A DNA stretch of 64,000 nucleotides from Alphaproteobacteria bacterium. GTDB lineage: Bacteria > Pseudomonadota > Alphaproteobacteria > UBA9655. The notes beneath the pieces are model-generated. The model was not told the origin of the DNA. It worked only from the letters and a program-made list of their open reading frames with translations, and did no database searches. Below, piece after piece: positions 11,896-31,378 of this stretch (its first letter is position 1; each line of letters begins with the position of its first letter). The stretch lies in contig JAIEPE010000023.1 of the NCBI GenBank assembly GCA_019749915.1, forward strand, positions 1 through 64,000, in the 5' to 3' direction. The translations under genes were made by a program, and so were the position numbers.

Positions 11896-13323
11896 ATGCA
11901 TGTAGTCATTTTATCAGGTGGAGTCGGCAGTCGACTATGGCCTGTTTCTCGAGATCTTAATCCTAAACCATTCATGAAACTGTCAGATGGTGAAAGTTTC
12001 TTACAGAAGGTGTATTTAAGAAGCGCTGTAATTCCGTTTGTGAAGAGCATTACAACAGTAACAGGAAAAGAGCTTTTTTTTAGAACGAAAGAAGAATACG
12101 AAGAAATTAAAAAAAATTCTAATAATATTGACAACAACTATATTATAGAACCTTTTGGAAGAAACACGGCAGCAGCGATTGCTTTAGCTGCTCAAGAAAT
12201 ATTGGATTTATATGGAAAGAATTCAATTTTACTCGTTCTTCCTTCTGATCACCTTATTTTGGATGAAAGTGCTTTTCTTAATGCAGTTGGAGAGGCAAAA
12301 AATTTAGCAAAAGAGGGAAGGGTTGTTACTTTTGGTATTAAACCAAGTGCACCCGAGACAGGATATGGTTACATTGAAGCAAATGGCAATGAAGTCATTC
12401 GTTTTATTGAAAAACCTTCTTTTGAAAAAGCTGAGATATATCTTAAAGAAAATAATTTCTTCTGGAATTCAGGAATGTTTTGTTTTTCTGTAGAAACTCT
12501 TCTTCATGAGATGGAGACGCATTGCTCTGATATTTTAATGGCAACGCAAGCGTGTATACGAAAATCAAAAATAACTACAAATATAAACTCCCGCACTCTT
12601 GAAATTGATCCCACTACCTTTGCTGAAGTTCCGTCAAATTCCATTGACTATGCTATTATGGAAAAAACGAAGAAAGCAGCGATAGTCCCCTGTGATATTG
12701 GCTGGAGCGATATAGGCACATGGAGTGCCATTAGCGAACTATCGAGTTCAGATTCCAATGGTAACAGTATAAAAGGTGACGCTTTTATTCATGATATAAA
12801 AAACTGCTATATTGAAAGTAATGATCGAATAATTGGTGCTGTTGGCTTGGAAAATCTAATTATTGTTGATACGCCTGATGCCCTGTTAATTACAAACAAA
12901 AGAAACACACAAGATGTAAAAAATATTTATTCTCAACTAAAAGATAATGGGCACGAAGCGCATAAATTACATAAAACTGTTCAAAGACCTTGGGGGACAT
13001 ACACTATTTTAGAGGAAGGGCCCGGTTTTAAGGTAAAACGCATCGAAGTCAATCCAAAAGCGAGTTTGAGCTTACAGCTGCATCATCGTCGAGCAGAACA
13101 CTGGGTTGTTGTTAGCGGGAAAGCTTTGGTTGTTAACGGTGATGATGAGTTCGTCCTAGAGATTAATCAATCAACTTATATTCCTATTAATAACAAACAT
13201 CGTTTGACAAATCTAGGTGATACAACTCTTGTGTTAATCGAAGTTCAAACGGGAGATTATTTGGGAGAAGATGATATCGTCCGTTTTGATGACATATACG
13301 GAAGAGTCGCCGATGCAGCCTAA
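11896..13323 (+). CDS. manC: mannose-1-phosphate guanylyltransferase / mannose-6-phosphate isomerase
   Basis: A 475-residue bifunctional type II PMI-GMP that makes mannose-6-P from fructose-6-P and GDP-mannose from mannose-1-P. The nucleotidyltransferase half shows GGVGSRLWPVSRDLNPKPF and FIEKPS. The C-terminal cupin isomerase half shows VNPKASLSLQLHHRRAEHW and WVVVSGKA. Length and layout match ManC/AlgA/WbpW. It opens the GDP-D-rhamnose polysaccharide locus, and its 3' end overlaps the mutase gene. A CtrA-type box lies upstream. Confidence 0.95.
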   Translation: MHVVILSGGVGSRLWPVSRDLNPKPFMKLSDGESFLQKVYLRSAVIPFVKSITTVTGKELFFRTKEEYEEIKKNSNNIDNNYIIEPFGRNTAAAIALAAQEILDLYGKNSILLVLPSDHLILDESAFLNAVGEAKNLAKEGRVVTFGIKPSAPETGYGYIEANGNEVIRFIEKPSFEKAEIYLKENNFFWNSGMFCFSVETLLHEMETHCSDILMATQACIRKSKITTNINSRTLEIDPTTFAEVPSNSIDYAIMEKTKKAAIVPCDIGWSDIGTWSAISELSSSDSNGNSIKGDAFIHDIKNCYIESNDRIIGAVGLENLIIVDTPDALLITNKRNTQDVKNIYSQLKDNGHEAHKLHKTVQRPWGTYTILEEGPGFKVKRIEVNPKASLSLQLHHRRAEHWVVVSGKALVVNGDDEFVLEINQSTYIPINNKHRLTNLGDTTLVLIEVQTGDYLGEDDIVRFDDIYGRVADAA

Positions 13324-14716
13324 AATACCCTGTTTTAAAGCCTATGATATACGTGGTAAGGTCCCTAGTGAGCTCAATAATGAATTGGCCTATAATATAG
13401 GCAGAGCTTTTTCAAAAACAATTGATCCTCACACTGTCGTTGTTGGATATGACATCCGTCTAGAGAGCCCAGAGCTTGCAAATTATTTAATAAAAGGTCT
13501 GAATGATGCAGGTGTAAACGTTATTAATATTGGCCTATGTGGGACTGAAGAAGTTTACTTTCATACCTTTGACAGACAAGCTCAGAATGTTGGAGGTGGC
13601 ATTATGATTACAGCAAGCCACAATCCAAAGGGTAATAATGGGATGAAGCTTGTTCGCGAACAGGGTATACCTATTTCGGGCGATTCAGGTTTATTTGAGA
13701 TTTGTAACCAAGTTGAGGAAATGCAAAGTTCAAAATCATCCTCCCTTCTTTTAAATTCTGGGTGGGTATCCGAGCAACTTGATAAAACAAACTACATTTC
13801 CCATCTTCTGAAATATATTAATACTGACTCTCTTAAGCCCTTAAAAATCGTTGTTAATCCTGGAAATGGTGGTGCGGGATTAATTATAAAATTACTTGAG
13901 AAACATCTGCCGTTTGAATTTATTTACGTAAATGAAGAGCCTGATGGAAATTTTCCGAATGGTGTTCCAAACCCTCTCCTGCCTGAAAACCGTTCATTGA
14001 CCTCAGAGGCTGTCAAGTTTCATAAAGCAGACATGGGAATTGCCTGGGATGGTGATTTTGATCGATGCTTTCTGTTTTGTGAAAATGGGGAATTTATCGA
14101 GGGATACTACATCGTTGGGCTTCTCGCAGAAGCGTTTTTAAAGAAAAATCCCCACGAAAAAATCATTCATGATCCAAGGTTGCTTTGGAATACGGTTGAT
14201 ATCGTGAAGAATTCCGGCGGCGAACCCATTCAAAGTAAGACAGGCCATGCATTTATCAAAGAACGAATGAGACTCGAAAATGCGATATATGGGGGTGAGA
14301 TGAGTGCTCATCACTATTTTCGAAATTTTGCCTATTGTGATAGCGGGATGATCCCTTGGTTATTGGTTGTCGAGCTTATGAGTCGCACAGGCAAAACCCT
14401 TTCTCATATGGTGACAGAGAGAATTGAAGCCTATCCTTGCAGTGGAGAAATTAATTACAAAGTCGGTAATGCCACTTTCGTTACTGAAGCCATCTTAAAA
14501 CACTTTTCTCCTCTGAATCCATCAATTGATTACACAGATGGCCTAAGCCTTGAATTTTCAGACTGGCGGTTTAACCTTAGATCCTCTAATACAGAACCAC
14601 TCTTGCGCCTTAATGTTGAAACCCGCGCGAATAAGGCGTTACTAACTGAACGTGTCGCTGAGATTGAAGGAGTGATAAATGGACTCCGAGATATGATGAT
14701 GGAGAAAGTGGCATAG
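13313..14716 (+). CDS. manB: phosphomannomutase / phosphoglucomutase
   Basis: 467 residues from the ATG at 13313, which overlaps the manC stop by 11 bases. It interconverts hexose-6- and hexose-1-phosphate to supply mannose-1-P. Evidence is the start motif CFKAYDIRG, the phosphoserine loop ITASHNPKGNNGMK, the metal loop IAWDGDFDRCF, the sugar-binding GGEMSAHHYF, and the C-terminal phosphate loop RSSNTEPLLRLNVE. An upstream in-frame ATG at 13271 would create a 53-base overlap and adds non-conserved residues. Confidence 0.95.
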   Translation: MQPKIPCFKAYDIRGKVPSELNNELAYNIGRAFSKTIDPHTVVVGYDIRLESPELANYLIKGLNDAGVNVINIGLCGTEEVYFHTFDRQAQNVGGGIMITASHNPKGNNGMKLVREQGIPISGDSGLFEICNQVEEMQSSKSSSLLLNSGWVSEQLDKTNYISHLLKYINTDSLKPLKIVVNPGNGGAGLIIKLLEKHLPFEFIYVNEEPDGNFPNGVPNPLLPENRSLTSEAVKFHKADMGIAWDGDFDRCFLFCENGEFIEGYYIVGLLAEAFLKKNPHEKIIHDPRLLWNTVDIVKNSGGEPIQSKTGHAFIKERMRLENAIYGGEMSAHHYFRNFAYCDSGMIPWLLVVELMSRTGKTLSHMVTERIEAYPCSGEINYKVGNATFVTEAILKHFSPLNPSIDYTDGLSLEFSDWRFNLRSSNTEPLLRLNVETRANKALLTERVAEIEGVINGLRDMMMEKVA

Positions 14717-15143: not shown

Positions 15144-15929
15144 ATGTTTAAAAGTCTTTGGAATTATCGCTATTTTATTTTTTCTTCCATCAGGAACGAA
15201 CTGAGAACACGTTTTATTCATTCTAAACTTGGAGCGTTATGGATGATTTTTAACCCCCTAGCCCAAGTGATGATTTATGCATTTATTTTATCAAATGTTT
15301 TAGCTGCAAAACTGCCAGGCATTGAAAATAAATACGCTTTTTCTATTTATTTAATGGCAGGTATACTAGGGTGGGCTTTGTTTTTTGATGTGATTTCTCG
15401 CTCTATTAACCTCTTTGTCGATAATGCAAATTTAATGAAAAAAATTAATTTCCCGCGTATGGCCCTTGCCAGTATTATGTTAGGCTCATGTTTGTTGAAT
15501 AATCTCATTTTATTAGGCTCAATTTTGGTTGTTTTTATCTTTTTGGGTCATTCCTTTAATTTTACCATTTTATGGTTGATCCCACTAATGGGAACGGTCA
15601 CTCTTTTTGCTTTTGGTATTGGCTTGATTCTTGGAGTGATTAACGTTTTTATTCGGGATGTTGCCCAAGGAATGCCAATTGTATTACAAGTCCTTTTTTG
15701 GTTTACACCAATTGTTTATCCAGTGACTATTGTTCCCACAGAATATTTAGGTTTTTTAAAAATGAATCCCTTGTTTCCAATTATTGAGGCTTATCATGCC
15801 GTTTTATTATATGGAGAATCCCCAGATATGACGTCTATTGTTCAGTTAAATATTATCGGTTTTTTAATTGTGTTATTTGGTCTCTTTATGTTCAGAAAAG
15901 CAAGTCCTGAAATGGTGGATGTATTATGA
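15144..15929 (+). CDS. wzm: polysaccharide ABC transporter permease Wzm
   Basis: A 261-residue ABC-2 type permease with six predicted membrane helices. The hallmarks are the cytoplasmic N-terminus RNELRTRFIHSKLGALWMIFNPLAQV, the cytosolic INFPRMALAS segment, and FWFTPIVYP before the last helices. With Wzt it flips undecaprenyl-linked O-polysaccharide across the inner membrane. It overlaps wzt by four bases, so the two subunits are coupled. Confidence 0.93.
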   Translation: MFKSLWNYRYFIFSSIRNELRTRFIHSKLGALWMIFNPLAQVMIYAFILSNVLAAKLPGIENKYAFSIYLMAGILGWALFFDVISRSINLFVDNANLMKKINFPRMALASIMLGSCLLNNLILLGSILVVFIFLGHSFNFTILWLIPLMGTVTLFAFGIGLILGVINVFIRDVAQGMPIVLQVLFWFTPIVYPVTIVPTEYLGFLKMNPLFPIIEAYHAVLLYGESPDMTSIVQLNIIGFLIVLFGLFMFRKASPEMVDVL

Positions 15930-17146
15930 CCGTTTTAGGGGTTAGTAATTTAGGAAAATCCTATCGGCAGTATGCCTCTGAATTCAACCGTTTTGGCAGA
16001 TGGTTTAATTTACCTGTCAAACCAACAGCAGAACATTGGGTTTTACAAAATGTTACATTTGACGTCCGAAGAGGCGAATCCCTTGGAATTGTCGGTAAAA
16101 ATGGAGCAGGAAAAAGCACACTGTTAAAAATGATCACAGGTGTTTTACAACCAACAGAAGGTTCTATCCATGTTAATGGAAAAATTGCTGCTATCTTAGA
16201 ATTAGGGATGGGTTTTAGTCCAGATTTAACGGCTCGAGCAAATGTACTTCAGTCTCTTGGCCTTATGGGGTATGGACATGATGAAATCACAGGCATACTC
16301 TCAGAAATTGAAGCTTTTGCCGAAATTGGTGAATATTTTGATGAACCCATGCGCACCTACTCAAGCGGCATGCAAGTGCGTGTGGCATTTTCTGTTGCAA
16401 CTGCTTTTAGGCCAGATATTTTAATCGTCGACGAAGCATTATCTGTGGGAGACGCTTATTTTCAGCATAAAAGCTTTGATCGTATTCGAGAATTTAAAAA
16501 TCAGGGGACGTCTCTTCTCATAGTATCTCATGATGCAGGCTCCATCCAAGCTATATGTGATAAAGTTATTTTATTACAAGATGGTGGCCTTCTCATGGAG
16601 GGTGCACCTGAAACTGTAATAGATTACTATAATGCTTCTCTTGCTGAACATCAAAATCAAACCCTGCGTCAAATAGACTGTGGTGAGCAAAAAGTTCAAA
16701 CAATTTCTGGTACAGGCGAAGCAACTATTGAAAAAGTAGAGTTGTTGGATGAAGATGGACAGTTGATTGAAGTTGCCGCTGTTGGACACAAGGTAACTCT
16801 TGCAGTTCATGTAAAAACACATTTCGATATTGAAAAACTCGTATTAGGTTTTTCCATCAAAAATCACCTAGGACAAGCTATTTTTGGAACAAATACGTAC
16901 CATACAAAACAAATTCAGTATGATGTTAAGAGTGGTACGGAGTTGTTATTTAATGTGCAATTCCCGGCTAATTTTGGTGAAGGATCATATTCTGTACAAT
17001 TGGCCTTGGTAAGTACTGATACACATTTAGTAAACAATTACGAATGGCGTGATTTAGCTTATGTCTTTAAAATTGCAAATTTAGCTAAGGATTATTTTAT
17101 TGGAATGTCTTGGTTAGATTCAATCATAGAGATTAAATCAAAATGA
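15926..17146 (+). CDS. wzt: polysaccharide ABC transporter ATPase Wzt with C-terminal binding domain
   Basis: 406 residues. Residues ~1-240 are the ATPase: Walker A GIVGKNGAGKST, an export-type signature YSSGMQVRVAF, Walker B ILIVDEALSVGD, and the switch histidine in IVSHD. Residues ~250-406 are a Wzt_C beta-sandwich domain (KVTLAVHVKT, FSIKNHLGQAIFGTN). In characterised O8/O9a systems this domain binds the modified non-reducing end of the finished glycan and so couples chain termination to export. That makes the FkbM methyltransferase encoded next a likely partner. It overlaps both neighbours by four bases. Confidence 0.94.
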   Translation: MTVLGVSNLGKSYRQYASEFNRFGRWFNLPVKPTAEHWVLQNVTFDVRRGESLGIVGKNGAGKSTLLKMITGVLQPTEGSIHVNGKIAAILELGMGFSPDLTARANVLQSLGLMGYGHDEITGILSEIEAFAEIGEYFDEPMRTYSSGMQVRVAFSVATAFRPDILIVDEALSVGDAYFQHKSFDRIREFKNQGTSLLIVSHDAGSIQAICDKVILLQDGGLLMEGAPETVIDYYNASLAEHQNQTLRQIDCGEQKVQTISGTGEATIEKVELLDEDGQLIEVAAVGHKVTLAVHVKTHFDIEKLVLGFSIKNHLGQAIFGTNTYHTKQIQYDVKSGTELLFNVQFPANFGEGSYSVQLALVSTDTHLVNNYEWRDLAYVFKIANLAKDYFIGMSWLDSIIEIKSK

Positions 17147-20100
17147 CTTCTATTATATCCTATGCTCAAAATTTTGAAGATATTATTTTATGGCGTGCCC
17201 TGAAAGATGTAAAAAATGGATATTATGTAGATATTGGCTCTGAAGATCCTATTACTTATTCTGTAAGCTATCTCTTTAGTCAAAATTATTGGAAGGGACT
17301 TAGTGTTGAACCTACAGATCAACACTTCAATAGCTTTAAACAACAACGTCCCCAAGATGATATCATCAAAGCGTTTGTTTCCGACACATCAGAACTAGTA
17401 GATTTTTATGTTTTTGCAGATACGGGGCTATCGACGGCTGATTTGAAAATAGCGGAAAAGCATAAAAAATTAGGATTTAATTATTCAATTGACAAAATAA
17501 AAACTATCACCCTTCAAGATATTTGGAATTTAACTAAAACAAAAGATATCCATTGGTTAAAGATTGATGTGGAAGGATATGAACAACAAATCCTAAAAGG
17601 GTGGAATAATGATGTTCGTCCTTGGGTTTTGCTTATTGAAAGCTGTTTCCCCATATCTGGTCCTCGTAATACTAAAGAATGGAAAAGAATAGAAGTCCAT
17701 GAAGAATGGGAGCATTTGATTTTATCGAAAGGCTACGAGTTTGTTTATGCTGATGGTCTTAATCGTTTTTATTTACATAAAGACCACCTAAGACTAAAGC
17801 CATTTTTTCAGTATCCCCCTAATGTAATTGAAGATGATTTTGTTATACATGAGACACTCATCAAGTTTGATAAACGTGCTAAAGACGCAGAAGCTGCGAA
17901 ACATCAATTAGAGGAACTTACAAATTCTCAGAACACTTTACTAAATGAAAAAGTGCAAGCTCTTGCCGCTCATGAAACAATTGTAAAAGAACAACAAGTT
18001 CACGTAGATACATTACAAGCTGCTCTTAATGAAGCTACAGAATCTCATAATGCTCTGCTAAATGAAAAAGCACAAACTCTTACCGCTCATGAAACAATTG
18101 TAAAAGAACAACAAGTTCACATAGATACATTGCAAGCTGCTCTTAATGAAGCTGCTCAATCTCAGAACGCTCTACTCAATGAAAAAGCACAAGCTCTTGC
18201 CGCACACGAAGCGATCATAAAAGAGAAACAAGCCCACGTAGATACATTACAAGCTGCTCTCAAGGAAACTGCTCAATCTCAGAACGCTCTGCTAAGCGAG
18301 AAAGTACAAGCTCTTGCTGCTCACGAAGCGATCATAAAAGAGCAGCAAGCTCACGTAGATACATTACAAGCTGCTCTCAAGGAAGCTGCTCAATCTCAGA
18401 AAAATCTTCTAAATGAAAAAGTGCAAGACCTTGCTACTCATGAAACAATTGTAAAAGAGCAACAAGCTCATGTAGATACATTACAAGTTGCTCTCAAGGA
18501 AGCTGCTCAATCTCAGAAAACTCTACTCAATGAAAAAGCACAAGCTCTTGCTGCCCACGAAGCGATCATAAAAGAGCAGCAAGCTCACGTAGATACATTA
18601 CGAGCTGCTCTCAAGGAAGCTGCTCAATCTCAGAAAACTCTGTTAAATGAAAAAGTGCAAGACCTTGCTACTCATGAAGCAATTGTAAAAGAACAACAAG
18701 CTCACGTAGATACATTACAAGTTGCTCTTAAGGAAGCTGCTCAATCTCAGAAAAATCTTCTAAATGAAAAAGCACAAGCTCTTGCTGCCCACGAAGCGAT
18801 CATAAAAGAGCAACAAGCTCATGTAGATACATTACAAACTACTCTCAAGGAAGCTGCTCAATCTCAGAAAAATCTTCTAAATGAAAAAGTGCATGCTCTT
18901 GCCACCCATAAAGCGATCATAAAAGAGAAACAAACTCATGTAGATATTTTGCAAGCTGCTGTTAAGGAAGCTGCAAAATCTCACAAAGCTTTGCTCAATG
19001 AAAAAGCACAAGCTCTTGCCTCTCACGAAGTGACCATAAAAGAGCAACAAGCTCATGTAGATACTTTGCAAACTGCCCTTAAGGTATCTAACAGACATAT
19101 CGACGAGTTAGTGGGTCAGATAACACTCACTAAATCCTATGCAGAAGCACTGGATGAACAATTCAAAAAAAAGGTTCAAGCTCTTTCGGATAATGAAGCC
19201 GCACTCGTTGAACAGCAAATACAATCTCAAAAATTACAAAATGAATACGAAGCTGCAGAGACAAAAATTGCTGAACTCAATGCTTCTTCACATCACTGGT
19301 GGACAATTGCAGACCAACTCACTCGCGAGCTTCAAACAGCAGAAACAAAAATCGCTGAACTCAATGCTTCTTCACATCACTGGTGGACAGTTGCCGACCA
19401 ACTCACTCGTGAGGTTCAAACAGCAGAGACAAAAATCGCTGAACTCAATGCTTGTTCATATCACTGGTGGACAGTTGCCGATCAACTCACTCGTGAGGTT
19501 CAAGCCGTCTATAATAGCATATCGTGGAAATTAACCTGGCCCATACGAGAATTTGATAGAATTGTTAAAGAAGGTATTTATAGAATTAAGGGTGAGTGGG
19601 GATCATTTCTACGGATCCTTAAAGATTTTCTTGCAAACAAGAATTTTACCCAAGAAGAACTTAAATATATAGACAATTGGTGTAATAACCAAATTAAAAA
19701 AAATAGAGAGCTTAATATAAGGCGGAAAGTATTTGATCATGGCGTTGGAAAAAAACTGAGAATAGTATTAGATTTACAAGGGGTTCAAACGTCTTCAGGG
19801 ACACGAGGAATTGGAAGATATAGCCTTAGTTTAGCCAAAGCCCTACTACGTAATCCCCGCCAACATGAATTTATTATTGCTCTGAATGGTGTTTATCCAG
19901 AATCTATTGATCAGGTTAAGATGGAATTTGATGGTTTAATAGATCCTAAGAATATTTTCATTTGGCAGGGAATTCCAAGTACAGCCTGGTGTAATGTAGA
20001 AAGTCATGCTAGAGCTGAAGTATCAGAAATAATGCGTGAATATAGTTTACAAACTCTTCAACCTGATATAATTCACATTTCAAGTTTGTTTGAGGGACTA

Positions 20101-21426
20101 CACGAAGATGCAAGCGTTTCTGTTAAAAATTTATATGATAACGTGCCAACGGCTGTTACTGTTTATGATTTAATTCCTTATCTAAAGCCAGATGACTACT
20201 TAAAAACTCCACAATCAAAACATTTATATATGAGGCAGATTAATAATCTGAAGCGAAGTGATTTATTATTAGCAATCTCACAATCAACCAGTCAGGAGAT
20301 TATTGATAATTTACTTGTACCAGCGAACAAAGTTGTGACCATATCCTCAGACACTAACGAGATTTTTAAGAAAATTCCTATTTCTACTGAGACATCTTCT
20401 ACAATAAGAGCAAAACACCAAATTAAACACAAGTTTATACTAACTGTTGGGGTAATCTCACCAGACGATAATAGAAAAAATTTAAAAACATTGGTTCAAG
20501 CATTTGCATTATTACCAAAAAACTTACAGCAAGAATATCAACTTGTCGTAGTTGGGCATGGTGATTCTGCAGGTAGAGAAGGCCTTCAAAATTTAACTAA
20601 AGAATTAAGTATACAAGAGGAAAACATTATTATTGCTGGACATATTCCAGATAATGATTTAATCGTTCTATATAATCTGACTGATTTATTAGTTTTACCT
20701 TCCTTACATGAGGGTTTTGGATTGCCTTTGCTAGAAGCAATGCGGTGTGGTGCTGCTGTTATTGGTTCTAACTGCAGTAGTATTCCCGAAGTTATTGGCT
20801 TTGATCAAGCGCTCTTTGACCCCCTCTCAAGTCAGTCAATCGCTGAAAAAATGGTGGAGGCATTAACGAACATTCCCTTTAGGGAAAAATTGATAGATCA
20901 CGGAACAAGGCAACATCTAAACTTTTCCTGGGAGAGAGTAGCTAACATAACTCTTGATTCTTTTGAGGCTCTATCAGCAAAGTGCCAACCTATTCAACCA
21001 AGTGCCCAAAAAATTACTCAAGCCTTTTATAGAGCGCTGATAAATTTTAAAACCAACCCAATTTATCCTGAGAATAAAAACAATAAATTACTAAAATGTT
21101 TAAGTGTCATTTTAAAACCCTTAATACAAAATTCTAAAGTTAGGTCTTTAGGGTCAAAGTATATTAATAGGTTTCCTTCAATAAAGTCTTTTATAAGAAA
21201 GGTTGATATTCCTGCCTATAGTTTAAAACAAAACTTAACTCTTGAAAATGAGGCTCCTGTTATAAATGAGGTTCCTGTTACAAACGAGATTCATGTTATA
21301 AATGAGGCTCCTGTTGTACTTCAAGATAATAACAATTTAAAAAACAGGGATTTATCTCTTAAAGTTTTGAAAATTTATTCACAACTTAATAATTCCATAA
21401 AAAGCAAAAGAAGAAAAGTCAGTTAA
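17143..21426 (+). CDS. FkbM methyltransferase - repetitive coiled coil - GT4 glycosyltransferase fusion
   Basis: A 1427-residue three-part protein. Residues ~1-230 are an FkbM-type SAM methyltransferase (YYVDIGSEDP, HWLKIDVEGYE). Residues ~245-800 are a long coiled coil. It contains ten tandem 39-residue repeats (LLNEKAQALAAHEAIIKEQQ...) at residues 265-654, then three 28-residue repeats with HHWWT.ADQLTRE, ending in YNSISWKLTWPIREFDR. Residues ~872-1290 are a GT4 glycosyltransferase (LDLQGVQTSSGTRGIGRY; LPSLHEGFGLPLLEAM). A six-residue NEAPVI-like repeat follows near residue 1370. Methyltransferase plus coiled coil next to a Wzt with a binding domain parallels WbdD, the O9a terminator and ruler. 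That function is inferred here. It overlaps wzt by four bases. Confidence 0.88.
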   Translation: MTSIISYAQNFEDIILWRALKDVKNGYYVDIGSEDPITYSVSYLFSQNYWKGLSVEPTDQHFNSFKQQRPQDDIIKAFVSDTSELVDFYVFADTGLSTADLKIAEKHKKLGFNYSIDKIKTITLQDIWNLTKTKDIHWLKIDVEGYEQQILKGWNNDVRPWVLLIESCFPISGPRNTKEWKRIEVHEEWEHLILSKGYEFVYADGLNRFYLHKDHLRLKPFFQYPPNVIEDDFVIHETLIKFDKRAKDAEAAKHQLEELTNSQNTLLNEKVQALAAHETIVKEQQVHVDTLQAALNEATESHNALLNEKAQTLTAHETIVKEQQVHIDTLQAALNEAAQSQNALLNEKAQALAAHEAIIKEKQAHVDTLQAALKETAQSQNALLSEKVQALAAHEAIIKEQQAHVDTLQAALKEAAQSQKNLLNEKVQDLATHETIVKEQQAHVDTLQVALKEAAQSQKTLLNEKAQALAAHEAIIKEQQAHVDTLRAALKEAAQSQKTLLNEKVQDLATHEAIVKEQQAHVDTLQVALKEAAQSQKNLLNEKAQALAAHEAIIKEQQAHVDTLQTTLKEAAQSQKNLLNEKVHALATHKAIIKEKQTHVDILQAAVKEAAKSHKALLNEKAQALASHEVTIKEQQAHVDTLQTALKVSNRHIDELVGQITLTKSYAEALDEQFKKKVQALSDNEAALVEQQIQSQKLQNEYEAAETKIAELNASSHHWWTIADQLTRELQTAETKIAELNASSHHWWTVADQLTREVQTAETKIAELNACSYHWWTVADQLTREVQAVYNSISWKLTWPIREFDRIVKEGIYRIKGEWGSFLRILKDFLANKNFTQEELKYIDNWCNNQIKKNRELNIRRKVFDHGVGKKLRIVLDLQGVQTSSGTRGIGRYSLSLAKALLRNPRQHEFIIALNGVYPESIDQVKMEFDGLIDPKNIFIWQGIPSTAWCNVESHARAEVSEIMREYSLQTLQPDIIHISSLFEGLHEDASVSVKNLYDNVPTAVTVYDLIPYLKPDDYLKTPQSKHLYMRQINNLKRSDLLLAISQSTSQEIIDNLLVPANKVVTISSDTNEIFKKIPISTETSSTIRAKHQIKHKFILTVGVISPDDNRKNLKTLVQAFALLPKNLQQEYQLVVVGHGDSAGREGLQNLTKELSIQEENIIIAGHIPDNDLIVLYNLTDLLVLPSLHEGFGLPLLEAMRCGAAVIGSNCSSIPEVIGFDQALFDPLSSQSIAEKMVEALTNIPFREKLIDHGTRQHLNFSWERVANITLDSFEALSAKCQPIQPSAQKITQAFYRALINFKTNPIYPENKNNKLLKCLSVILKPLIQNSKVRSLGSKYINRFPSIKSFIRKVDIPAYSLKQNLTLENEAPVINEVPVTNEIHVINEAPVVLQDNNNLKNRDLSLKVLKIYSQLNNSIKSKRRKVS
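17935..19104 (+). repeat. ten 117-bp tandem repeats (39 residues each) in the coiled coil
   Basis: Ten in-frame units of exactly 117 bases run without a gap. Units 5 and 7 (VQDLATHE...LQVALKE) and units 4, 6 and 8 (VQ/AQALAAHEAIIKEQQ) alternate, so the array shows a 234-base higher-order period from recent duplication of pairs. 39 residues equal four heptads plus one hendecad, compatible with a continuous coiled coil. Such an array should change copy number easily. Confidence 0.95.
19255..19506 (+). repeat. three 84-bp tandem repeats (28 residues each)
   Basis: Three in-frame copies of AETKIAELNASSHHWWT followed by (I/V)ADQLTRE(L/V)Q. At 28 residues each unit equals four heptads, so the coiled coil continues. 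The WW-ADQLTRE element followed by a SWKLTWPIR segment is a linker type often seen next to GT domains in envelope polysaccharide enzymes. Confidence 0.93.
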
Positions 21427-21428
21427 AG

Positions 21429-24400
21429 ATGAAGATTGTTATTGATCTACAAGGACTTCAAGCTAATCCGTGGGATAATCAAATTGCCCAAAATAGCTTT
21501 TTGATAACTCGATCTTTGATTCAAAAGTCAAATAATCATGACATTTACATAGCCCTGAATCATAATTTAGCATCTACAATAGATCGCATTTTTTACAGTT
21601 TTTCAGATATTTTACCCAGAGAAAAGATATTATTGTGGCAGGGGTTAAGTAATGTATCAAACAATAATAGTGAAAATAATTCTCGTTCTGTAATTTCACA
21701 ATTAATTTATGAAAACTATATTAAAAGTCAACTGCCAGATGTGGTGCTTACGACTAATCTTTGGCAAGGGTGGGATGATGATGCGACTACGGGGCTTTTA
21801 AATTCTGAAGGTATCTATATTTCTGCGGTGATATATTATCCAAAGGATCATAAGGATATACCAGAAAATCATAAATGGTATTTAGAAAAAGTATCTCAGC
21901 TTAAAACTGCAGATTTAATATTTACAACTGATAATAAAACTAACGATAAAGTATTAAAATCCTTAAAAATATCTAAGGAGAAAATAACTCCATTATCCTG
22001 TCATGATTTATCCATGTCTAGAGAAGCTGATATAATTCTCTCCGCTTTCGAATCACAGTATAAAGAAAGGTTATTATCTAAGAATATTACATCTGATAAG
22101 AAGAAATTAAAGAAGTTAGCTTATTTCTCCCCTTTTCCACCAGAACAATCCGGTATTGCTGAATATAGCTCAGGAATATTACCCGAATTAGCAAAATACT
22201 TTGATATCGAGCTGATAACAAATCTTGTAAAAATAGACAAAATTGATGATATAGATCTTGAAAAAGATTTCCCAAAAAAAACCGTAGATCAATTTTATGA
22301 ATCTGCAAAGTCCTACGACCATATCTTATATCATTTCGGCAATTCTCCCTTCCATTCTCATATGATCTCCTTACTAGCCAAATATCCTGGTACCGTAGTG
22401 ATGCATGATTTTTATTATAGTGCATTGCTACGTTATCTTGAAACATATCCTACAGACGAGAAGATCGACCAAAAAATATTTCAAAGAAGTCTTTATGAAT
22501 CCCACGGTTATGAAGCTTTGAAATTTTACACGGTGAATGGAGAAGATCAGGCAGTAAGGCATTATCCCGCTAATCACCAATTTATCTCTAATGCAGCAGG
22601 TATTATTGTTCACTCTCAACATGCTAAAGATTTAGCTAGTTATTGGTATAATTCAACAGTAAATCAAACTTGGTTTGAGACTAAATTACCAAGACATGAA
22701 CCAAAAAATAAAGATAAAATACATTCGCGTAAATTACTAGGAATCGATCCAGATGCCTTTGTTGTTTGTAGTTTTGGTAGAGTTGACATAACCAAACAAA
22801 ATAATAAAATATTAATGGCATGGCTTAATTCAAAAATGGTAACAAATAAAAACTGCTATTTGTTTTTTGTCGGTCCATATCCTCCTCCTGATTACTTTGA
22901 TGAAATGAAAACAAATATTAATTCATTTCCTGATAATAAAAGAATGATTTTAACTGATTTTGTTGACTCAGAAACATATCAACATTATCTTGCGGCTGCT
23001 GATATTGGAATTCAATTAAGACAATTTTCAAGGGGAGAAAGTTCAATCAGCGTTTTAGATTGTTTGGCTAATAAATTAGCAACAATTGTCAATGCATGTG
23101 GTTCATTTGATGAAATAGATGACAAATCAGTTTATAAGTTGCCAGATGATTTTACACAAGAACAACTCATTGAAGCCATAGAAGTTTTGTATGATGATAC
23201 CCGTTTAAGAAATAGACTACAGTGTGATGGTTATAAGTATTATAAGAATTTCCATACCCCAAAAGTGATAGCTCCGCAATATGCTTCTGCTATAAACCAA
23301 TCTATAAAAAGGGCTTTGATAACAGATAATAATAATATTCTGCGTGAGATAGAACAACGTGATGATTTATCATTTTCTGATGAAGATATTTTACAAATTG
23401 CTGTAGCTCTGAGTGAGAATACCCCATCTGTTTTTAAGAATTTTTTTATAGATATTTCTATTCTAGTAAACTTTGACTCCAAAACTGGCATCGAAAGAGT
23501 AACTCGAAGTATTTTGTTAAATTTATTATCTTCTAAAATTCCAGAATATAAAATTGAGCCCGTTTATTGGAAAGATGGTCAATATTATTATGCAAGAATG
23601 TTTACAGTGGATTTTCTAGGAATTCATAATTTTGGACTTGTTGATGAGCCAATAGATATTGGGTGTAAGGATATTTTATTAGTGCTAGAATTGGACATGG
23701 GAAGATCTTATGATGTTGTAGCTCAAGATTTCTTAAAACACCATTCACAACGAGGACTAAAAATATATTATCTTGTATATGATTTATTGCCAATATTAAA
23801 TCCGGAGTGGTTTTTCGAAGAATATTATGCATGGTTTGATAACTGGTTAAACAAAGTGTCTCTGGTCGCTGATGGTTTAATTGGCATATCTCAGTCTACT
23901 GCTAATCAATTGAATAAGTGGTTAAATAATAATCCCCATTCAAGATTAAGTCCACTAAACATAGGTTATGCCCATTTAGGTGCAGATATTGACAATAGTA
24001 AGCCAACCATCGGCATTAATGCAGACGAGAAGGAGAAATTACAGCAATTAAAAGACCATCAAATCATTCTTATGGTTGGCACAGTTGAACCCCGAAAGGG
24101 TTACGACCAGGCGATAGAAGCCATGGATGAATTGTGGGCTAAAGATGAGAAAAAGACCTTAGTTATTGTGGGTAAGAAGGGTTGGATGATTGATGACTTG
24201 GCCCAAAAATTGAACAATCACGAACAAATGAATAAAAGGCTCTTTTGGTTTGATAATGCAAGCGATGAGTTGCTGAGTGAACTTTACAAAATTTCTACTG
24301 TTTTTCTAATGGCTTCACGTGGTGAAGGTTTTGGGTTACCAATTATTGAAGCTGCCCAAAATGGGATACCAATTATTGCTCGTGATTTACCCGTTTTTCG

Positions 24401-25838
24401 AGAAATAGCGGGACACCATGCCTATTATTTTTCGGGAACTACGGGGTTAGAACTCACGAATGCTATTATAGACTGGTTTAATTTATTTGCGAGCGGCTCT
24501 CACCCTCAAAATCATGACATGCCTTATTTAACTTGGGAAAAAACCGCTACTAATTTGTTAAAATGTATTTTTGAAAATGATTGGTTAATAACATGGCAAC
24601 CAATTTTGGAATCGCCCTTCGTTAAACTAGAACAGAAAAATTTAAAGCAAATTTTTACAGATATTTCAAATATTGTAAAATTTGATCTCAAAACCGGGAT
24701 TGAACGTGTAACACGAAGTATTTTGTTGAAATTATTGGCCTCTAATATACCAGGCTATAAGATTGAGCCAGTGTATCGAAAAGATGGTCAGTATTTTTAC
24801 GCTCGTGATTTTACAATGAAATTTTTGGAGGTTGATAATTTTGGATTAGTTGATGAACCCATAGATATTGGACCTCAAGATATCTTTTTGGGGTTAGATT
24901 TGGATCTAGAAAATGCTTCTGACATAGAAGTTCAAGAATTCTTACAGCACCATTCCCAACGAGGACTAAAAATATATTTCATTGTATATGATTTGCTCCC
25001 CATATTAAATCCTCAATGGTTTCCTGAATATAATGTATTAGTCTACAAAGATTGGATAACTAAAATAACAAAGAATGCCGATGGTCTCATTGGCATATCT
25101 CAATCGACTGCTAATCAAATAGGTGAATGGATTGATAGTAATCCTCCCGAAAGATTTAGTTCTTTAAATATAGGTTATGCCCATTTAGGTGCAGATATTA
25201 ACGATAGCAAACCAACTGTCGGCATTAATGTAGATGAGAAGGAGAAATTACAGCAGTTAAAAGATCATCAAATTATCCTTATGGTTGGTACAGTTGAACC
25301 TCGAAAGGGTCATGACCAAGCAATAGAAGCAATGGATGAGCTGTGGAGCAGAGGGGAGCAAAAAACTTTACTTATTGTGGGTAAGAAGGGTTGGATGATT
25401 GATGACTTGGCCCAAAAATTGAATAATCACGAACAAATGAATAAAAGACTCTTTTGGTTTGATAATGCAAGTGATGAGTTACTCAGTGAACTTTACAAAA
25501 TTTCTACTGTTTTTCTAATGGCTTCACGCGGTGAAGGTTTTGGGCTGCCAATTATCGAAGCCGCACAAAATGGATTGCCGATCATCTCCCGTGATTTGCC
25601 CGTTTTTAAAGAAGTAGCAGGCCATCATGCTTATTACTTCTCGGGTAAGACAGGGTCACAACTTGCAACAGACATTTTAAAATGGTTTGATTTATTGGCT
25701 AAAGGTACGTACCCTCGAAGTCATGACATGCCTTATTTGACTTGGCAACAAAGCACTGATGATTTATTAAAATGTATTTTCGAAAATGAATGGACGATAA
25801 ATTGGGAACCGACCGTAGAAAACCTCAAAGCGAGTTAG
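21429..25838 (+). CDS. giant multi-domain GT4 glycosyltransferase
   Basis: 1469 residues. Residues ~1-200 resemble only the N-terminal Rossmann half of a GT4 enzyme (MKIVIDLQGLQANPW), similar to the GT of the preceding gene, without its C-terminal half. Residues ~225-640 form a complete GT4 module (LAYFSPFPPEQSGIAEYS; FGRVDITKQNNKIL). Residues 672-1074 and 1075-1469 are a tandem duplication of one GT4 module (DISxxVxFDxKTGIERVTRS; MVGTVEPRKG; ASRGEGFGLPIIEAAQNG). Multi-GT polymerases such as WbdA build O-polysaccharides in ABC-dependent systems, so this is the likely D-rhamnan polymerase. It starts two bases after the previous stop. Confidence 0.9.
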   Translation: MKIVIDLQGLQANPWDNQIAQNSFLITRSLIQKSNNHDIYIALNHNLASTIDRIFYSFSDILPREKILLWQGLSNVSNNNSENNSRSVISQLIYENYIKSQLPDVVLTTNLWQGWDDDATTGLLNSEGIYISAVIYYPKDHKDIPENHKWYLEKVSQLKTADLIFTTDNKTNDKVLKSLKISKEKITPLSCHDLSMSREADIILSAFESQYKERLLSKNITSDKKKLKKLAYFSPFPPEQSGIAEYSSGILPELAKYFDIELITNLVKIDKIDDIDLEKDFPKKTVDQFYESAKSYDHILYHFGNSPFHSHMISLLAKYPGTVVMHDFYYSALLRYLETYPTDEKIDQKIFQRSLYESHGYEALKFYTVNGEDQAVRHYPANHQFISNAAGIIVHSQHAKDLASYWYNSTVNQTWFETKLPRHEPKNKDKIHSRKLLGIDPDAFVVCSFGRVDITKQNNKILMAWLNSKMVTNKNCYLFFVGPYPPPDYFDEMKTNINSFPDNKRMILTDFVDSETYQHYLAAADIGIQLRQFSRGESSISVLDCLANKLATIVNACGSFDEIDDKSVYKLPDDFTQEQLIEAIEVLYDDTRLRNRLQCDGYKYYKNFHTPKVIAPQYASAINQSIKRALITDNNNILREIEQRDDLSFSDEDILQIAVALSENTPSVFKNFFIDISILVNFDSKTGIERVTRSILLNLLSSKIPEYKIEPVYWKDGQYYYARMFTVDFLGIHNFGLVDEPIDIGCKDILLVLELDMGRSYDVVAQDFLKHHSQRGLKIYYLVYDLLPILNPEWFFEEYYAWFDNWLNKVSLVADGLIGISQSTANQLNKWLNNNPHSRLSPLNIGYAHLGADIDNSKPTIGINADEKEKLQQLKDHQIILMVGTVEPRKGYDQAIEAMDELWAKDEKKTLVIVGKKGWMIDDLAQKLNNHEQMNKRLFWFDNASDELLSELYKISTVFLMASRGEGFGLPIIEAAQNGIPIIARDLPVFREIAGHHAYYFSGTTGLELTNAIIDWFNLFASGSHPQNHDMPYLTWEKTATNLLKCIFENDWLITWQPILESPFVKLEQKNLKQIFTDISNIVKFDLKTGIERVTRSILLKLLASNIPGYKIEPVYRKDGQYFYARDFTMKFLEVDNFGLVDEPIDIGPQDIFLGLDLDLENASDIEVQEFLQHHSQRGLKIYFIVYDLLPILNPQWFPEYNVLVYKDWITKITKNADGLIGISQSTANQIGEWIDSNPPERFSSLNIGYAHLGADINDSKPTVGINVDEKEKLQQLKDHQIILMVGTVEPRKGHDQAIEAMDELWSRGEQKTLLIVGKKGWMIDDLAQKLNNHEQMNKRLFWFDNASDELLSELYKISTVFLMASRGEGFGLPIIEAAQNGLPIISRDLPVFKEVAGHHAYYFSGKTGSQLATDILKWFDLLAKGTYPRSHDMPYLTWQQSTDDLLKCIFENEWTINWEPTVENLKAS
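23442..25838 (+). repeat. tandem duplication of a 1.2-kb glycosyltransferase module
   Basis: Unit 1 (23442-24650) and unit 2 (24651-25838) encode the same GT4 module with an offset of 1209 bases. Long stretches are near-identical at DNA level, for example the region coding KGWMIDDLAQKLNNHEQMNK and the E-x7-E loop. The N-terminal parts have drifted more, as expected if the acceptor-binding halves specialise. Confidence 0.93.
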
Positions 25839-25860: not shown

Positions 25861-27813
<1,953 letters not shown>

Positions 27814-27817
<4 letters not shown>

Positions 27818-28941
27818 AAATCGGAGTAGATGCAAGGTTATTATCTCGACCCATAACCGGAATTGGGAGATATACTTTGGAAATGTGCCGCGCTTTATCT
27901 CACATCAAAGAAATATCTCTCTATCTCTATGCTCCCTCTCCTATCAGTCCTGAATTTATAAGCAGTTTAGAACCATCAACTGTCAGATCAGCTCATTTCA
28001 ATAATCGATTACTCAGACAGATTTGGTCAGAAGTCTGCCTTCCTTTCTGGGCAAGGCAAGATAGAGTGGATGTATTTTGGGGGCCAACCCATCGAATTCC
28101 TAATTGGCTTCCTTCTAGAACAGCTCGCGTCTTAACAATCCATGATTTGGTTTGGAAATTTGCGGGAGAGACTATGCGTCCTTTTTCCAAAACTTTGGAA
28201 CAGTATCAGATGCCTTTAGCTATTAAAAAAGCAGATCATATTGTTGTTGATTCAAAAGCCATAGCAAATTCCCTTTTAGAAGAGTTTCCTCTATGTAAAA
28301 ACAAAATAACTATTATATCACTTGGTTCTAATCATTTAAGCCATAAGGTAGATCTTCAAATCCTAAAGGATATGAATATTATAAAACCCTATTGCCTTTT
28401 TGTTGGAACCCTTGAACCTCGAAAGAATCTAGCAAATCTATTAATGGCTTATTCAAAACTCCCAGAGTCATCCAAATCAAAGATCATGCTTTTGATTGCA
28501 GGAGGCACTGGTTGGGGAGATGTTAATCTCGAGAGTCTGATTAAGAACCTAAATTTGAGTTCTTATGTAAAGCTTCTTGGGTTTGTGGACGAACCAACTC
28601 TGGCAACTTTGTATGCCTATGCCCGATTTCTTGTTTTACCGTCTCTATATGAAGGTTTTGGTCTTCCTTTAGTTGAAGCTATGACTTATAGCCTTCCGGT
28701 TCTGACCTCAAACAACTCAGCTATGATTGAAATTGCTGGCAATGCTGGGGTTTTAGTTGATCCTTTGGATAAAGAATCCATAAAACAAGGTTTGATCCAA
28801 CTCATAAATGATGATAAGCTTTATAATGTACTTTCTCAGAACGCTAAAGAAAATGTTCGTCGTTTTAATTGGCAATTTTCCGCTAATCAGTTACTAACTG
28901 TATTTAAAGAAGCCATCCTCCATAGGAAATCTGTAACCTAA
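27814..28941 (+). CDS. GT4 glycosyltransferase, WbpY-like rhamnosyltransferase
   Basis: 375 residues from a TTG start that overlaps the rmd stop. The GT-B fold shows MKIGVDARLLSRPITGIGRYT, the WSEVCLPFW and TIHDLVW segments, FVGTLEPRKNL, and the donor-binding LPSLYEGFGLPLVEAM (E-x7-E). In content and order it matches the WbpY position of the Pseudomonas common polysaccharide antigen locus, where it adds alpha-1,3 D-rhamnose. The linkage here is inferred. Confidence 0.87.
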
Positions 28942-30059
28942 TGAAAGTCCTTCATTTTTATAAAACTTTTTTTGGTGAGACTAGAGGGGGAGTTGAAAAG
29001 GTTATTGATCAAATATCATTAAGTACGGCTGCCCTAGGTGTTAACTCCAAAGTGCTGTGCCTAACCCCTGCGAAAAAAGAATCCTTGACAGAAATGAATG
29101 GGTACAAAGTTCATTGTGTTCCTCAGTTATTTGAAGTTGCCTCAACTCCTTTTTCAATTTCTGTATTTCATCGCTTTCGTGAATTAGCAAGACAAGCTGA
29201 CATTATTCATTATCATTTTCCCTATCCATTTGCAGATATCCTTCATTTTGCCTCAAGGATTGAAAAACCTACAATATTGACATACCATTCTGATATCATT
29301 AAACAAAAAGTTTTACTTAAATTGTATAGACCTCTAAAACGTCTTTTCTTGCAAGATATTGGCCATATTGTTGCAACGTCACCTAACTATTTAGAAACGA
29401 GTGAAGCCTTAGGCATTTTTAAAGAAAAGACGAGTGTTATTCCCATTGGCCTTGATAAGAATGCATATCCATCCCCTCCAAATGACAATTTGGACTACTG
29501 GCGTCAAAGATTTGGCAAAAAGTTTTTCCTATTTGTTGGGGTTTTTAGATATTATAAGGGCTTACATATTCTTATTGAGGCAGCAAGTACACTGGACTGT
29601 CAGATAGTTATCGTAGGAGCTGGCCCTATTGAAAAAGAGCTAAAAGAACAGGTTGTAAAGCTAGGAATTAACAATATCCATTTCATCGGCCCTCTCCCAG
29701 AGGAAGACAAGATTGCTTTATTGCAGCTTTGTTATGCTGTAGTTTTTCCTTCTCACCTACGTTCAGAAGCTTTCGGTGTTTCTTTACTTGAAGGAGCCAT
29801 GTTCGGTAAGCCTATGATATCTTGCGAAATTGGGACGGGCACTACATATATTAACATTAACAAGGAAACAGGGATTGTTGTTCCTCCTGCAGATCCTTTG
29901 GCCCTGCGATTCGCTTTACAATTTCTTTTAGACAGAATAGATATTGCTCTTGAAATGGGAGTACAAGCAGAAAAGCGATATTGGACTCACTTTACGGCAG
30001 AGAAAATGGCTAAATCATATTTAGGGGTTTATAAAGACTTATTGACAAAAAGGCCATAG
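28941..30059 (+). CDS. GT4 glycosyltransferase, WbpZ-like
   Basis: 372 residues sharing one base with the previous stop. It opens MKVLHFYKTFFGETRGGVEKVI, typical of WbpZ-type transferases that place the first D-rhamnose on the lipid-linked primer. It also has TILTYHSDIIKQK, FVGVFRYYKGLHIL, and the E-x7-E loop SEAFGVSLLEGAMFGKP. It is the last gene of the polysaccharide locus and is followed by a terminator-like hairpin. The assignment as first transferase is by similarity. Confidence 0.87.
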   Translation: MKVLHFYKTFFGETRGGVEKVIDQISLSTAALGVNSKVLCLTPAKKESLTEMNGYKVHCVPQLFEVASTPFSISVFHRFRELARQADIIHYHFPYPFADILHFASRIEKPTILTYHSDIIKQKVLLKLYRPLKRLFLQDIGHIVATSPNYLETSEALGIFKEKTSVIPIGLDKNAYPSPPNDNLDYWRQRFGKKFFLFVGVFRYYKGLHILIEAASTLDCQIVIVGAGPIEKELKEQVVKLGINNIHFIGPLPEEDKIALLQLCYAVVFPSHLRSEAFGVSLLEGAMFGKPMISCEIGTGTTYININKETGIVVPPADPLALRFALQFLLDRIDIALEMGVQAEKRYWTHFTAEKMAKSYLGVYKDLLTKRP

Positions 30060-30297: not shown

Positions 30298-30675
30298 ATG
30301 CTACAGCCAGGCTTATTTGATATGGAAAATCGCTTAGAGAGTCTGTCGAAGTTTGGTGATCCTTTGGAGAAGTTGAAGGAAGTTGTGGACTTCGAGATAT
30401 TTCGAACAGAGATTGAAGACGCATTGGAGTTTAAGGATCGCTCTAAGGGAGGCAGGCCTCCATACGATAGTATCCTTATTTTTAAGATCCTCACGCTCCA
30501 GACTCTTTATACCCTATCGGACGATCAGACCGAATACCAAATTAAGGACCGGTTGAGTTTCATGAGATTTCTGCATTTGAGTCTTTCGAAAAATGTTCCT
30601 GATGCGAAGACTATTTGGCTTTATCGAGAGAGATTGGCTCAAAAGGGTCTTAGAAAAGCTCTTTGCAACCTTTGA
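30298..30675 (+). CDS. IS5-family transposase, N-terminal part
   Basis: 125 residues beginning MLQPGLFDMENRLESLSKFG. The family's DUF772-like N-terminal domain is clear: RSKGGRPPYDSILIFKIL, LYTLSDDQTEYQIKDRLSF, VPDAKTIWLYRERL. The frame leaves homology at AQKG and ends in LRKALCNL, while homology continues one frame on. This is either a mutational frameshift or the two-ORF layout of some IS5 subgroups. Confidence 0.85.
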   Translation: MLQPGLFDMENRLESLSKFGDPLEKLKEVVDFEIFRTEIEDALEFKDRSKGGRPPYDSILIFKILTLQTLYTLSDDQTEYQIKDRLSFMRFLHLSLSKNVPDAKTIWLYRERLAQKGLRKALCNL

Positions 30676-31378
30676 CCAGGCCTTAAAAGATCGAGGGTAT
30701 TTAGCCATGAGTGGCCAGATTATTGATGCGACAATTGTTTCAGCGCCTCGTCAGCGGATGACGAAGAAAGAGAAGGAAACCATTAAAAAAGGAGATATTC
30801 CTGAGGAGTGGAAAGAACATCCTTCAAAATTATCTCAAAAAGATAGAGAAGCCAGATGGGTTGTTAAATACAGCAAGGCTAAGGTTAAAAATGGAGAAAA
30901 AGCCATTGACCTTGCAACATCTTATTTTGGGTATAAAAATCACATTTCCACGGATAAGCGGTATGGGTTTGTACGTAAATTTCATACAAGTGATGCCAGT
31001 CGTTACGATGGTAAAGTCTTACCCCTCCTCTTGGATAAGGAGAATACAGCCAGTAATGTTTGGGGAGATACGGCTTATCGATCGGAGGAAAATGAAACCC
31101 TTTTAAAAGACAATGGTTTTGCCTCTCAACTTCACCGGAAAAAACCAAAGGGAAAGGCAATGCCTCAGCATATCCAAAGGGCGAATGGAAAAAAATCTAA
31201 AGTCCGTTCTAAGGTGGAGCATATTTTTGCTGTTCAGAAAGATAAAATGGCCTTGTTTATCAGAACTATTGACCTCAAAAGAGCCCATGTAAAAATCGGT
31301 CTTGCCAATATCGTCTACAATATGAAAAGACTCATCTTCTGGGAAAACCGAAGGGTTTTACATCTTAGGTATCTCTAA
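30593..31378 (+). CDS. IS5-family transposase, C-terminal catalytic part
   Basis: Homologous sequence begins about base 30662 (VLEKLFATFDQALKDRGYLAMSG); the frame itself is open from an upstream ATG at 30593. The DDE residues are in SGQIIDATIV, VWGDTAYRSEEN and SKVEHIFAVQKDKM, with an R-x-K context in the last. It lies in the +1 frame relative to the N-terminal part, so a full transposase needs a shift near the AAAAGGG at about 30641. Confidence 0.83.
   Translation: MFLMRRLFGFIERDWLKRVLEKLFATFDQALKDRGYLAMSGQIIDATIVSAPRQRMTKKEKETIKKGDIPEEWKEHPSKLSQKDREARWVVKYSKAKVKNGEKAIDLATSYFGYKNHISTDKRYGFVRKFHTSDASRYDGKVLPLLLDKENTASNVWGDTAYRSEENETLLKDNGFASQLHRKKPKGKAMPQHIQRANGKKSKVRSKVEHIFAVQKDKMALFIRTIDLKRAHVKIGLANIVYNMKRLIFWENRRVLHLRYL

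Follow-up and report, generated by a model that had tools for sequence, protein, structure and literature searches.

The window analysed here, the 64,000-nucleotide stretch at positions 1 to 64,000 of contig JAIEPE010000023.1 from an Alphaproteobacteria bacterium (assembly GCA_019749915.1), carries a gene (17143..21426, +) that starts with ATG and encodes, uninterrupted by stop codons, a protein of 1427 amino acids (aa). It lies directly downstream of wzm, encoding an ATP-binding cassette (ABC) permease (15144..15929, +; Pfam ABC2_membrane; 38% to Wzm of the Escherichia coli HS O9 cluster), and wzt, encoding an ATPase with a C-terminal cap-binding module (15926..17146, +; Wzt_C; 40% to O9 wzt), and the three genes are joined by start/stop overlaps. 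An earlier sequence-only reading had described the product as an FkbM methyltransferase, a repetitive coiled coil and a family 4 glycosyltransferase (GT4) encoded after wzm and wzt; this description is accurate, as the open reading frame (ORF), Pfam, Tandem Repeats Finder (TRF) and AlphaFold agree. The data presented below make it likely that the protein is a WbdD-like terminator and length ruler with an FkbM head, serving an ABC-exported polysaccharide of the D-rhamnan type.

The methyltransferase head (residues 1-235; 17143..17847, +) scores above the cut-offs of both PF05050 (68.4 bits; curated cut-off 22.7) and TIGR01444 (41.3 bits; cut-off 37.7). The Pfam FkbM/Methyltransf_21 match covers residues 30-200 (1.1e-18), and the invariant family residues and core residues are all kept. 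In the AlphaFold model, the FkbM block has a predicted local distance difference test score (pLDDT) mostly of 90-98 and adopts a class I S-adenosylmethionine-dependent methyltransferase fold, MeT1 (6g80) being the top Foldseek match. No kinase family was matched in the 1427-aa protein with Pfam, nor is there room for one, as the helix begins at residue 236. The methyltransferase of WbdD is of the Methyltransf_31/25 type and is accompanied by a kinase. We thus rejected the idea that the FkbM head is a WbdD-type methyltransferase-kinase: the Pfam families differ, the kinase is absent and the profiles have no detectable similarity. The kinase domain of WbdD belongs to O9a only, O8 WbdD being without kinase activity.

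A predicted long helix or coiled-coil rod follows (residues 236-791; 17848..19515, +). It comprises ten 39-residue repeats (residues 262-651; 117 bp; 17926..19095, +), which TRF detects as 117 bp x 9.9 at 17926-19084, and three 28-residue repeats (84 bp, 93%; TRF x 3.0; 19255..19503, +). The 39-residue unit corresponds to four heptads plus one hendecad. AlphaFold predicts helices at residues 236-417, 434-791 and 793-829, i.e., a nearly continuous helix over residues 236-829 with a pLDDT of 41-86; the single break falls within a near-identical repeat, where the pLDDT is <50. A COILS-type scan, for which we used our own script with a hand-entered matrix, was mostly positive along the rod. From these predictions the rod probably forms a continuous coiled coil. 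We did not retain the hydrophobic-period spectrum (3.54 residues) as proof of a coiled coil, since any 39-residue repeat gives comparable power. The repeats evolve under purifying selection: the proportion of synonymous differences (pS) is 0.36 and that of nonsynonymous differences (pN) 0.12 (pN/pS about 0.33). If fully coiled, the rod would span about 82 nm (556 residues x 0.1485 nm); the WbdD rod measures about 20 nm (PMC5082667). The part of the gene that encodes the protein's tail holds a further repeat, of 18 bp x 3.9 (window 21246-21315), which codes for an NEAPVI-like linker.

The C-terminal region links the protein to WbdD. A hidden Markov model (HMM) built from the C-termini of 19 unfused FkbM-coil proteins matched E. 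coli WbdD at residues 587-688 with an E value of 2e-10 in a search space of 10,000, against 0.45 for the best among 200 shuffled controls. The same model matched the 1427-aa protein in two pieces, one on each side of the GT4 module: residues 786-816, VQAVYNSISWKLTWPIR (19498..19590, +; HMM positions 1-31), and residues 1313-1425 (21079..21417, +; HMM positions 42-125). In WbdD, this region recruits the polymerase WbdA (PMC3482155). The GT4 module itself (residues 872-1277; 19756..20973, +) contains Glyco_transf_4 (888-1067) and Glycos_transf_1 (1087-1255; 5.5e-33), has an EX7E motif (EGFGLPLLE), and is predicted by AlphaFold with a pLDDT mostly of 80-98; the tail is poorly predicted. It is the counterpart of the WbdA N-terminal module, with 38% identity to residues 1-404 of E. 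coli WbdA (E 6.5e-94), and in most relatives this counterpart is the first part of a separate polymerase gene. Judged by this homology, the built-in GT4 is a WbdA-N-type polymerase module fused to the ruler. The next gene (21429..25838, +) encodes a multi-module GT4 polymerase of 1469 aa, two modules of which are WbdA-C-like (40%). Its residues 1-215 (window 21429-22073) form a diverged half-module, 20% to WbdA-N and devoid of an EX7E motif, and are probably what remains of the module that now sits in the ruler. In other fused relatives the C-terminal region is contiguous and the glycosyltransferases come after it; the GT4 insertion that splits this region is therefore unseen in the other fused proteins surveyed. 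The glycosyltransferase had been presented in the sequence-only reading as an added twist: it is indeed present, but it is a WbdA-N-type polymerase module and ruler-glycosyltransferase fusions were already known.

The surrounding cluster closely parallels that of E. coli HS O9, whose annotated record gives the order manC, rfbK, wzm, wzt, wbdD, wbdA, wbdB, wbdC. Upstream of wzm lie manC, for GDP-mannose synthesis (11896..13323, +; TIGR01479, 539 bits; 44% to O9 manC), and a phosphomannomutase gene (13271..14716, +; Pfam PGM_PMM I-IV; 57% to O9 RfbK). Downstream of the polymerase lie gmd, for GDP-mannose 4,6-dehydratase (25873..26910, +; TIGR01472, 465 bits, over the cut-off), a gene for a putative rmd-like reductase that would yield GDP-D-rhamnose (26894..27817, +; Pfam GDP_Man_Dehyd/Epimerase; assigned from its position and relatives), and two GT4 genes, one WbdB-like (27814..28941, +; 29% to WbdB) and the other WbdC-like (28941..30059, +; 46% to WbdC). 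The functional order shared with O9 is manC-pmm-wzm-wzt-[terminator]-[WbdA-type polymerase]-GT-GT, every partner being homologous, and the 1427-aa gene stands in the place of WbdD, after wzt and before the polymerase of an ABC-dependent cluster. Because gmd and the rmd-like gene suggest GDP-D-rhamnose, we infer a D-rhamnan-type product. An ORF for a DDE transposase (window 30593-31378) lies at the end of the cluster, and a 1118-aa LuxR-HTH, NB-ARC and TPR protein, a STAND-type regulator, is encoded next to the cluster (window 31715-35071, -). No homologue of the 1427-aa protein was found among 14 congeners, as expected from an exchangeable O-antigen locus.

Wzt had been noted to carry a C-terminal domain of the glycan-binding type, which is borne out by both the Wzt_C match and homology to a domain of known structure. 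Its carbohydrate-binding module (CBM; about residues 252-397) matches the carbohydrate-binding domain (CBD) of Aquifex Wzt (8dky/6o14/7k2t; E 6e-13), the next-best CBD structure, 2r5o, reaching an E value of only 0.85. As described for Aquifex (PMC9445017), the CBD binds 3-O-methyl-D-mannose (3-O-Me-D-Man/Rha), and the Aquifex O antigen is a D-rhamnose/mannose polymer with 3-O-methyl sugar caps; Trp362 stacks on the methyl group, the ring oxygen is bound by Asn313, and the second sugar is in contact with His355. These three residues, N313, H355 and W362 in Aquifex numbering, are invariant in 26/26 CBM-type Wzts of FkbM-coil loci, including that of the window. The conserved contacts support a rhamnose-like chain end that bears a methyl cap, without specifying where the methyl sits.

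We then searched for the same arrangement elsewhere. One FkbM-profile scan of species-representative genomes gave 80 loci, two of which duplicate genomes (~78). FkbM-coil genes recur directly behind CBM-type Wzt: the FkbM-coil gene immediately follows wzt in 27 of the ~78 loci, and the 27 wzt genes encode 24 full-length CBM-type proteins (one a contig-edge fragment), one protein with the nucleotide-binding domain only (L062) and two short CBM-only products (L095, L103). The gene after the FkbM-coil gene in wzt-adjacent loci usually encodes a polymerase whose first module matches the GT4 of the window. Members are found in Gamma-, Beta- and Alphaproteobacteria, in a Nitrospirae metagenome-assembled genome (MAG; L052) and in a Firmicute (L048); in a Synechococcus locus (L054), wzt is two genes away. 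FkbM-coil-glycosyltransferase fusions occur independently in other genomes. One in Nitrosospira (L070:2497-7797), encoded after wzm-wzt, is a 1767-aa protein that combines FkbM with two GT4 modules, a GT2 module and a coil of 240 residues containing 70-residue repeats. The cultivable Azospirillum brasilense has wzm-wzt-FkbM-coil-GT on a plasmid. In Candidatus Regiella insecticola (L113:10001-11332), the FkbM gene following wzt is frameshifted into two frames in an otherwise complete-looking cluster; E. coli DNA searched with this gene gave no match.

The tandem construction of the rod is a property of the family. Across the loci surveyed, tandem arrays in the DNA occupy 18.9% of FkbM-coil spacer bases versus 0.25% of all other bases, and 1383/5361 coil residues of FkbM proteins lie in arrays versus 0/1498 in other coil ORFs of the same loci, a small control set with some spurious ORFs among its members. 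The in-frame units are multiples of 7 residues in 22/26 cases, against a chance expectation of 1/7 (binomial about 2e-15 if each array counts as independent); the other four, of 11, 11, 18 (7+11) and 39 (28+11) residues, all fit heptad/hendecad coils. By comparison, the sole tandem array of O9 WbdD, a short 15-bp one, lies outside the coil. Because unit sequences differ widely among eleven loci, their comparison suggests that the arrays arose repeatedly and independently. Searches for copy-number variants yielded none: a search of the genus Limnohabitans returned only the query genome, Pseudomonas relatives (78% and ~45% identical) are too divergent for repeat counting, and Sphingobium plasmids carry equal gene lengths. 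Two MAGs (L095:557-1540 and L103:9998-10969) share an identical 11.2 kb without substitutions and differ only by 11- and 23-nt indels in the FkbM coil array, and in both versions the coil is out of frame with the SWRIT end. We discounted these indels as copy-number variation, since they break the frame and both sequences are MAGs; the difference is likely an assembly error, or else true array instability.

Taken together, these data favour a WbdD-like mechanism, in which we infer methyl transfer, methyl position, glycan identity, oligomeric state and length control. The chain would grow at the membrane through WbdA-type modules, one within the ruler protein and the others in the next gene, until its free end met the FkbM domain at the rod's distal end. 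FkbM would then O-methylate the chain end, most likely at O3 of the last rhamnose or mannose; this methylation would stop growth, and the CBM of Wzt would read the methyl cap and license export. The inserted GT4 module would provide by covalent linkage what WbdD achieves by recruiting WbdA. Both the coil-length ruler and C-terminal WbdA recruitment are proven for WbdD (PMC3482155, PMC5082667, PMC11231755). The WbdD-like part of the sequence-only reading stands on O9 gene order, on C-terminal homology to WbdD, on the Aquifex-type CBM of Wzt and on the recurrence of FkbM-coil genes behind wzt, but it does not hold for the type of head.

Several observations weigh against this mechanism. The FkbM profile and the WbdD methyltransferase show no detectable similarity with hhalign (probability 1.5%). 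The COILS score of the 39-mers is only modestly above that of column-permuted copies, 8.3% of which attain it. Three Aquifex contacts lack conservation: H350, T346 and L300 are V, Q and S, respectively, in the Wzt of the window, and H350, which contacts the C2 hydroxyl in Aquifex, is V, T, C or A in relatives; the cap chemistry may therefore differ. Several Burkholderiales relatives with long coils have no CBM-type Wzt nearby in the fetched flanks. These long FkbM-coil proteins of 823-944 aa (L047, L049, L050, L053, L056) are mostly encoded beside gmd or manC, and the group possibly represents a ruler without a cap-reading Wzt. Lastly, some wzt-adjacent relatives (L079, L116) have little or no coil, so that a long rod is not obligatory.

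This last point bears on the strongest alternative, in which FkbM caps the chain and couples it to Wzt, the rod does no more than tether or scaffold, and length depends on the ratio of enzymes or the kinetics of export. The coil indeed ranges from almost none to ~555 residues among loci of one Wzt type. However, WbdD, a proven ruler, has a homologous C-terminus and an equal gene position, and coil arrays are strongly enriched and retain unit lengths compatible with a coiled coil; we therefore hold a mere tether to be unlikely. FkbM could also methylate an internal sugar, which is a further point against capping, and FkbM domains are common in O-methyltransferases; in the extreme case, the protein would decorate internal residues and take no part in termination. 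This is quite improbable given that the gene occupies the exact position of WbdD, that the protein has a WbdD-type C-terminus and that the adjacent Wzt carries a CBM of the methyl-cap type. Finally, it is scarcely credible that the gene is decaying or that the protein is an artefact of assembly or fusion: the assembly has 73 contigs, tandem repeats assemble poorly and a transposase lies downstream, but the 1427-aa frame is open, the repeats are under constraint, the FkbM and glycosyltransferase motifs are intact and independent FkbM-coil-GT fusions exist elsewhere, which confines the doubt to the repeat copy number, which may be wrong.

Several known systems bear comparison with the proposed terminator-ruler. 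WbdD of E. coli O9/O9a/O8 and Klebsiella pneumoniae O3/O5 shares the operon place between wzt and the WbdA polymerase, an N-terminal methyltransferase, a central coil and the homologous C-terminal region (an SWRxT motif plus helices), but has a Methyltransf_31/25-type head with a kinase, whereas our protein has an FkbM head, a tandem-repeat rod ~4x longer than the WbdD coil and a C-terminal region interrupted by a GT4 module. In K. pneumoniae O7, ORF6 likewise combines a methyltransferase head, a coiled coil and C-terminal polymerase modules in a single protein, although its methyltransferase is of another type and it carries a kinase, a CBM and GT2 modules, where our protein has FkbM and one GT4; O12 WbbB unites terminator, coil ruler and polymerase glycosyltransferases in a single chain, but terminates with a Kdo transferase rather than by methylation (PMC11231755). 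WsaE of Geobacillus stearothermophilus is a methyltransferase-rhamnosyltransferase fusion that caps a rhamnan beside wzm/wzt; however, the product is an L-rhamnan S-layer glycan with a 2-O-methyl cap, and its action is independent of chain length in vitro (PMC2943079). The Aquifex aeolicus WzmWzt has a homologous CBM that binds a 3-O-methyl-D-Man/Rha cap and differs in some cap-contact residues (PMC9445017). The E. coli O101/O162 methyltransferase, a proposed ruler with a C-terminal coil and an O-methyl cap, acts on another glycan and is likened here by description (PMC13168486).

Ruler-glycosyltransferase fusion as such is thus already known, from O7 ORF6, O12 WbbB and WsaE. We found no literature linking FkbM to rulers, a 2019 bioinformatic survey of terminators, which could mention FkbM terminators, being outside the search, and none on tandem-repeat rulers by title or abstract. 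The FkbM-coil family is apparently widespread and little described, and its tandem-repeat-encoded rods are the most interesting new point. The findings would tie many genes annotated as 'FkbM family methyltransferase' to a known mechanism, in which a methyl cap, a ruler made of coil and an exporter that reads the cap act together. In WbdD-type rulers, the capping head would be swappable without loss of the C-terminal docking region, and the fact that ruler and polymerase module are covalently joined supports a physical coupling between them. Glycan length is a key surface trait, and in-register repeats make it testable against repeat number in natural variants. FkbM-coil rulers may even be evolvable, possibly switchable length scales, an idea we put forward tentatively and with some doubt: minisatellite slippage or recombination would add or remove in-register units and shift O-chain length within a population. 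As the rods are built of tandem repeats, repeat gain or loss might tune chain length.

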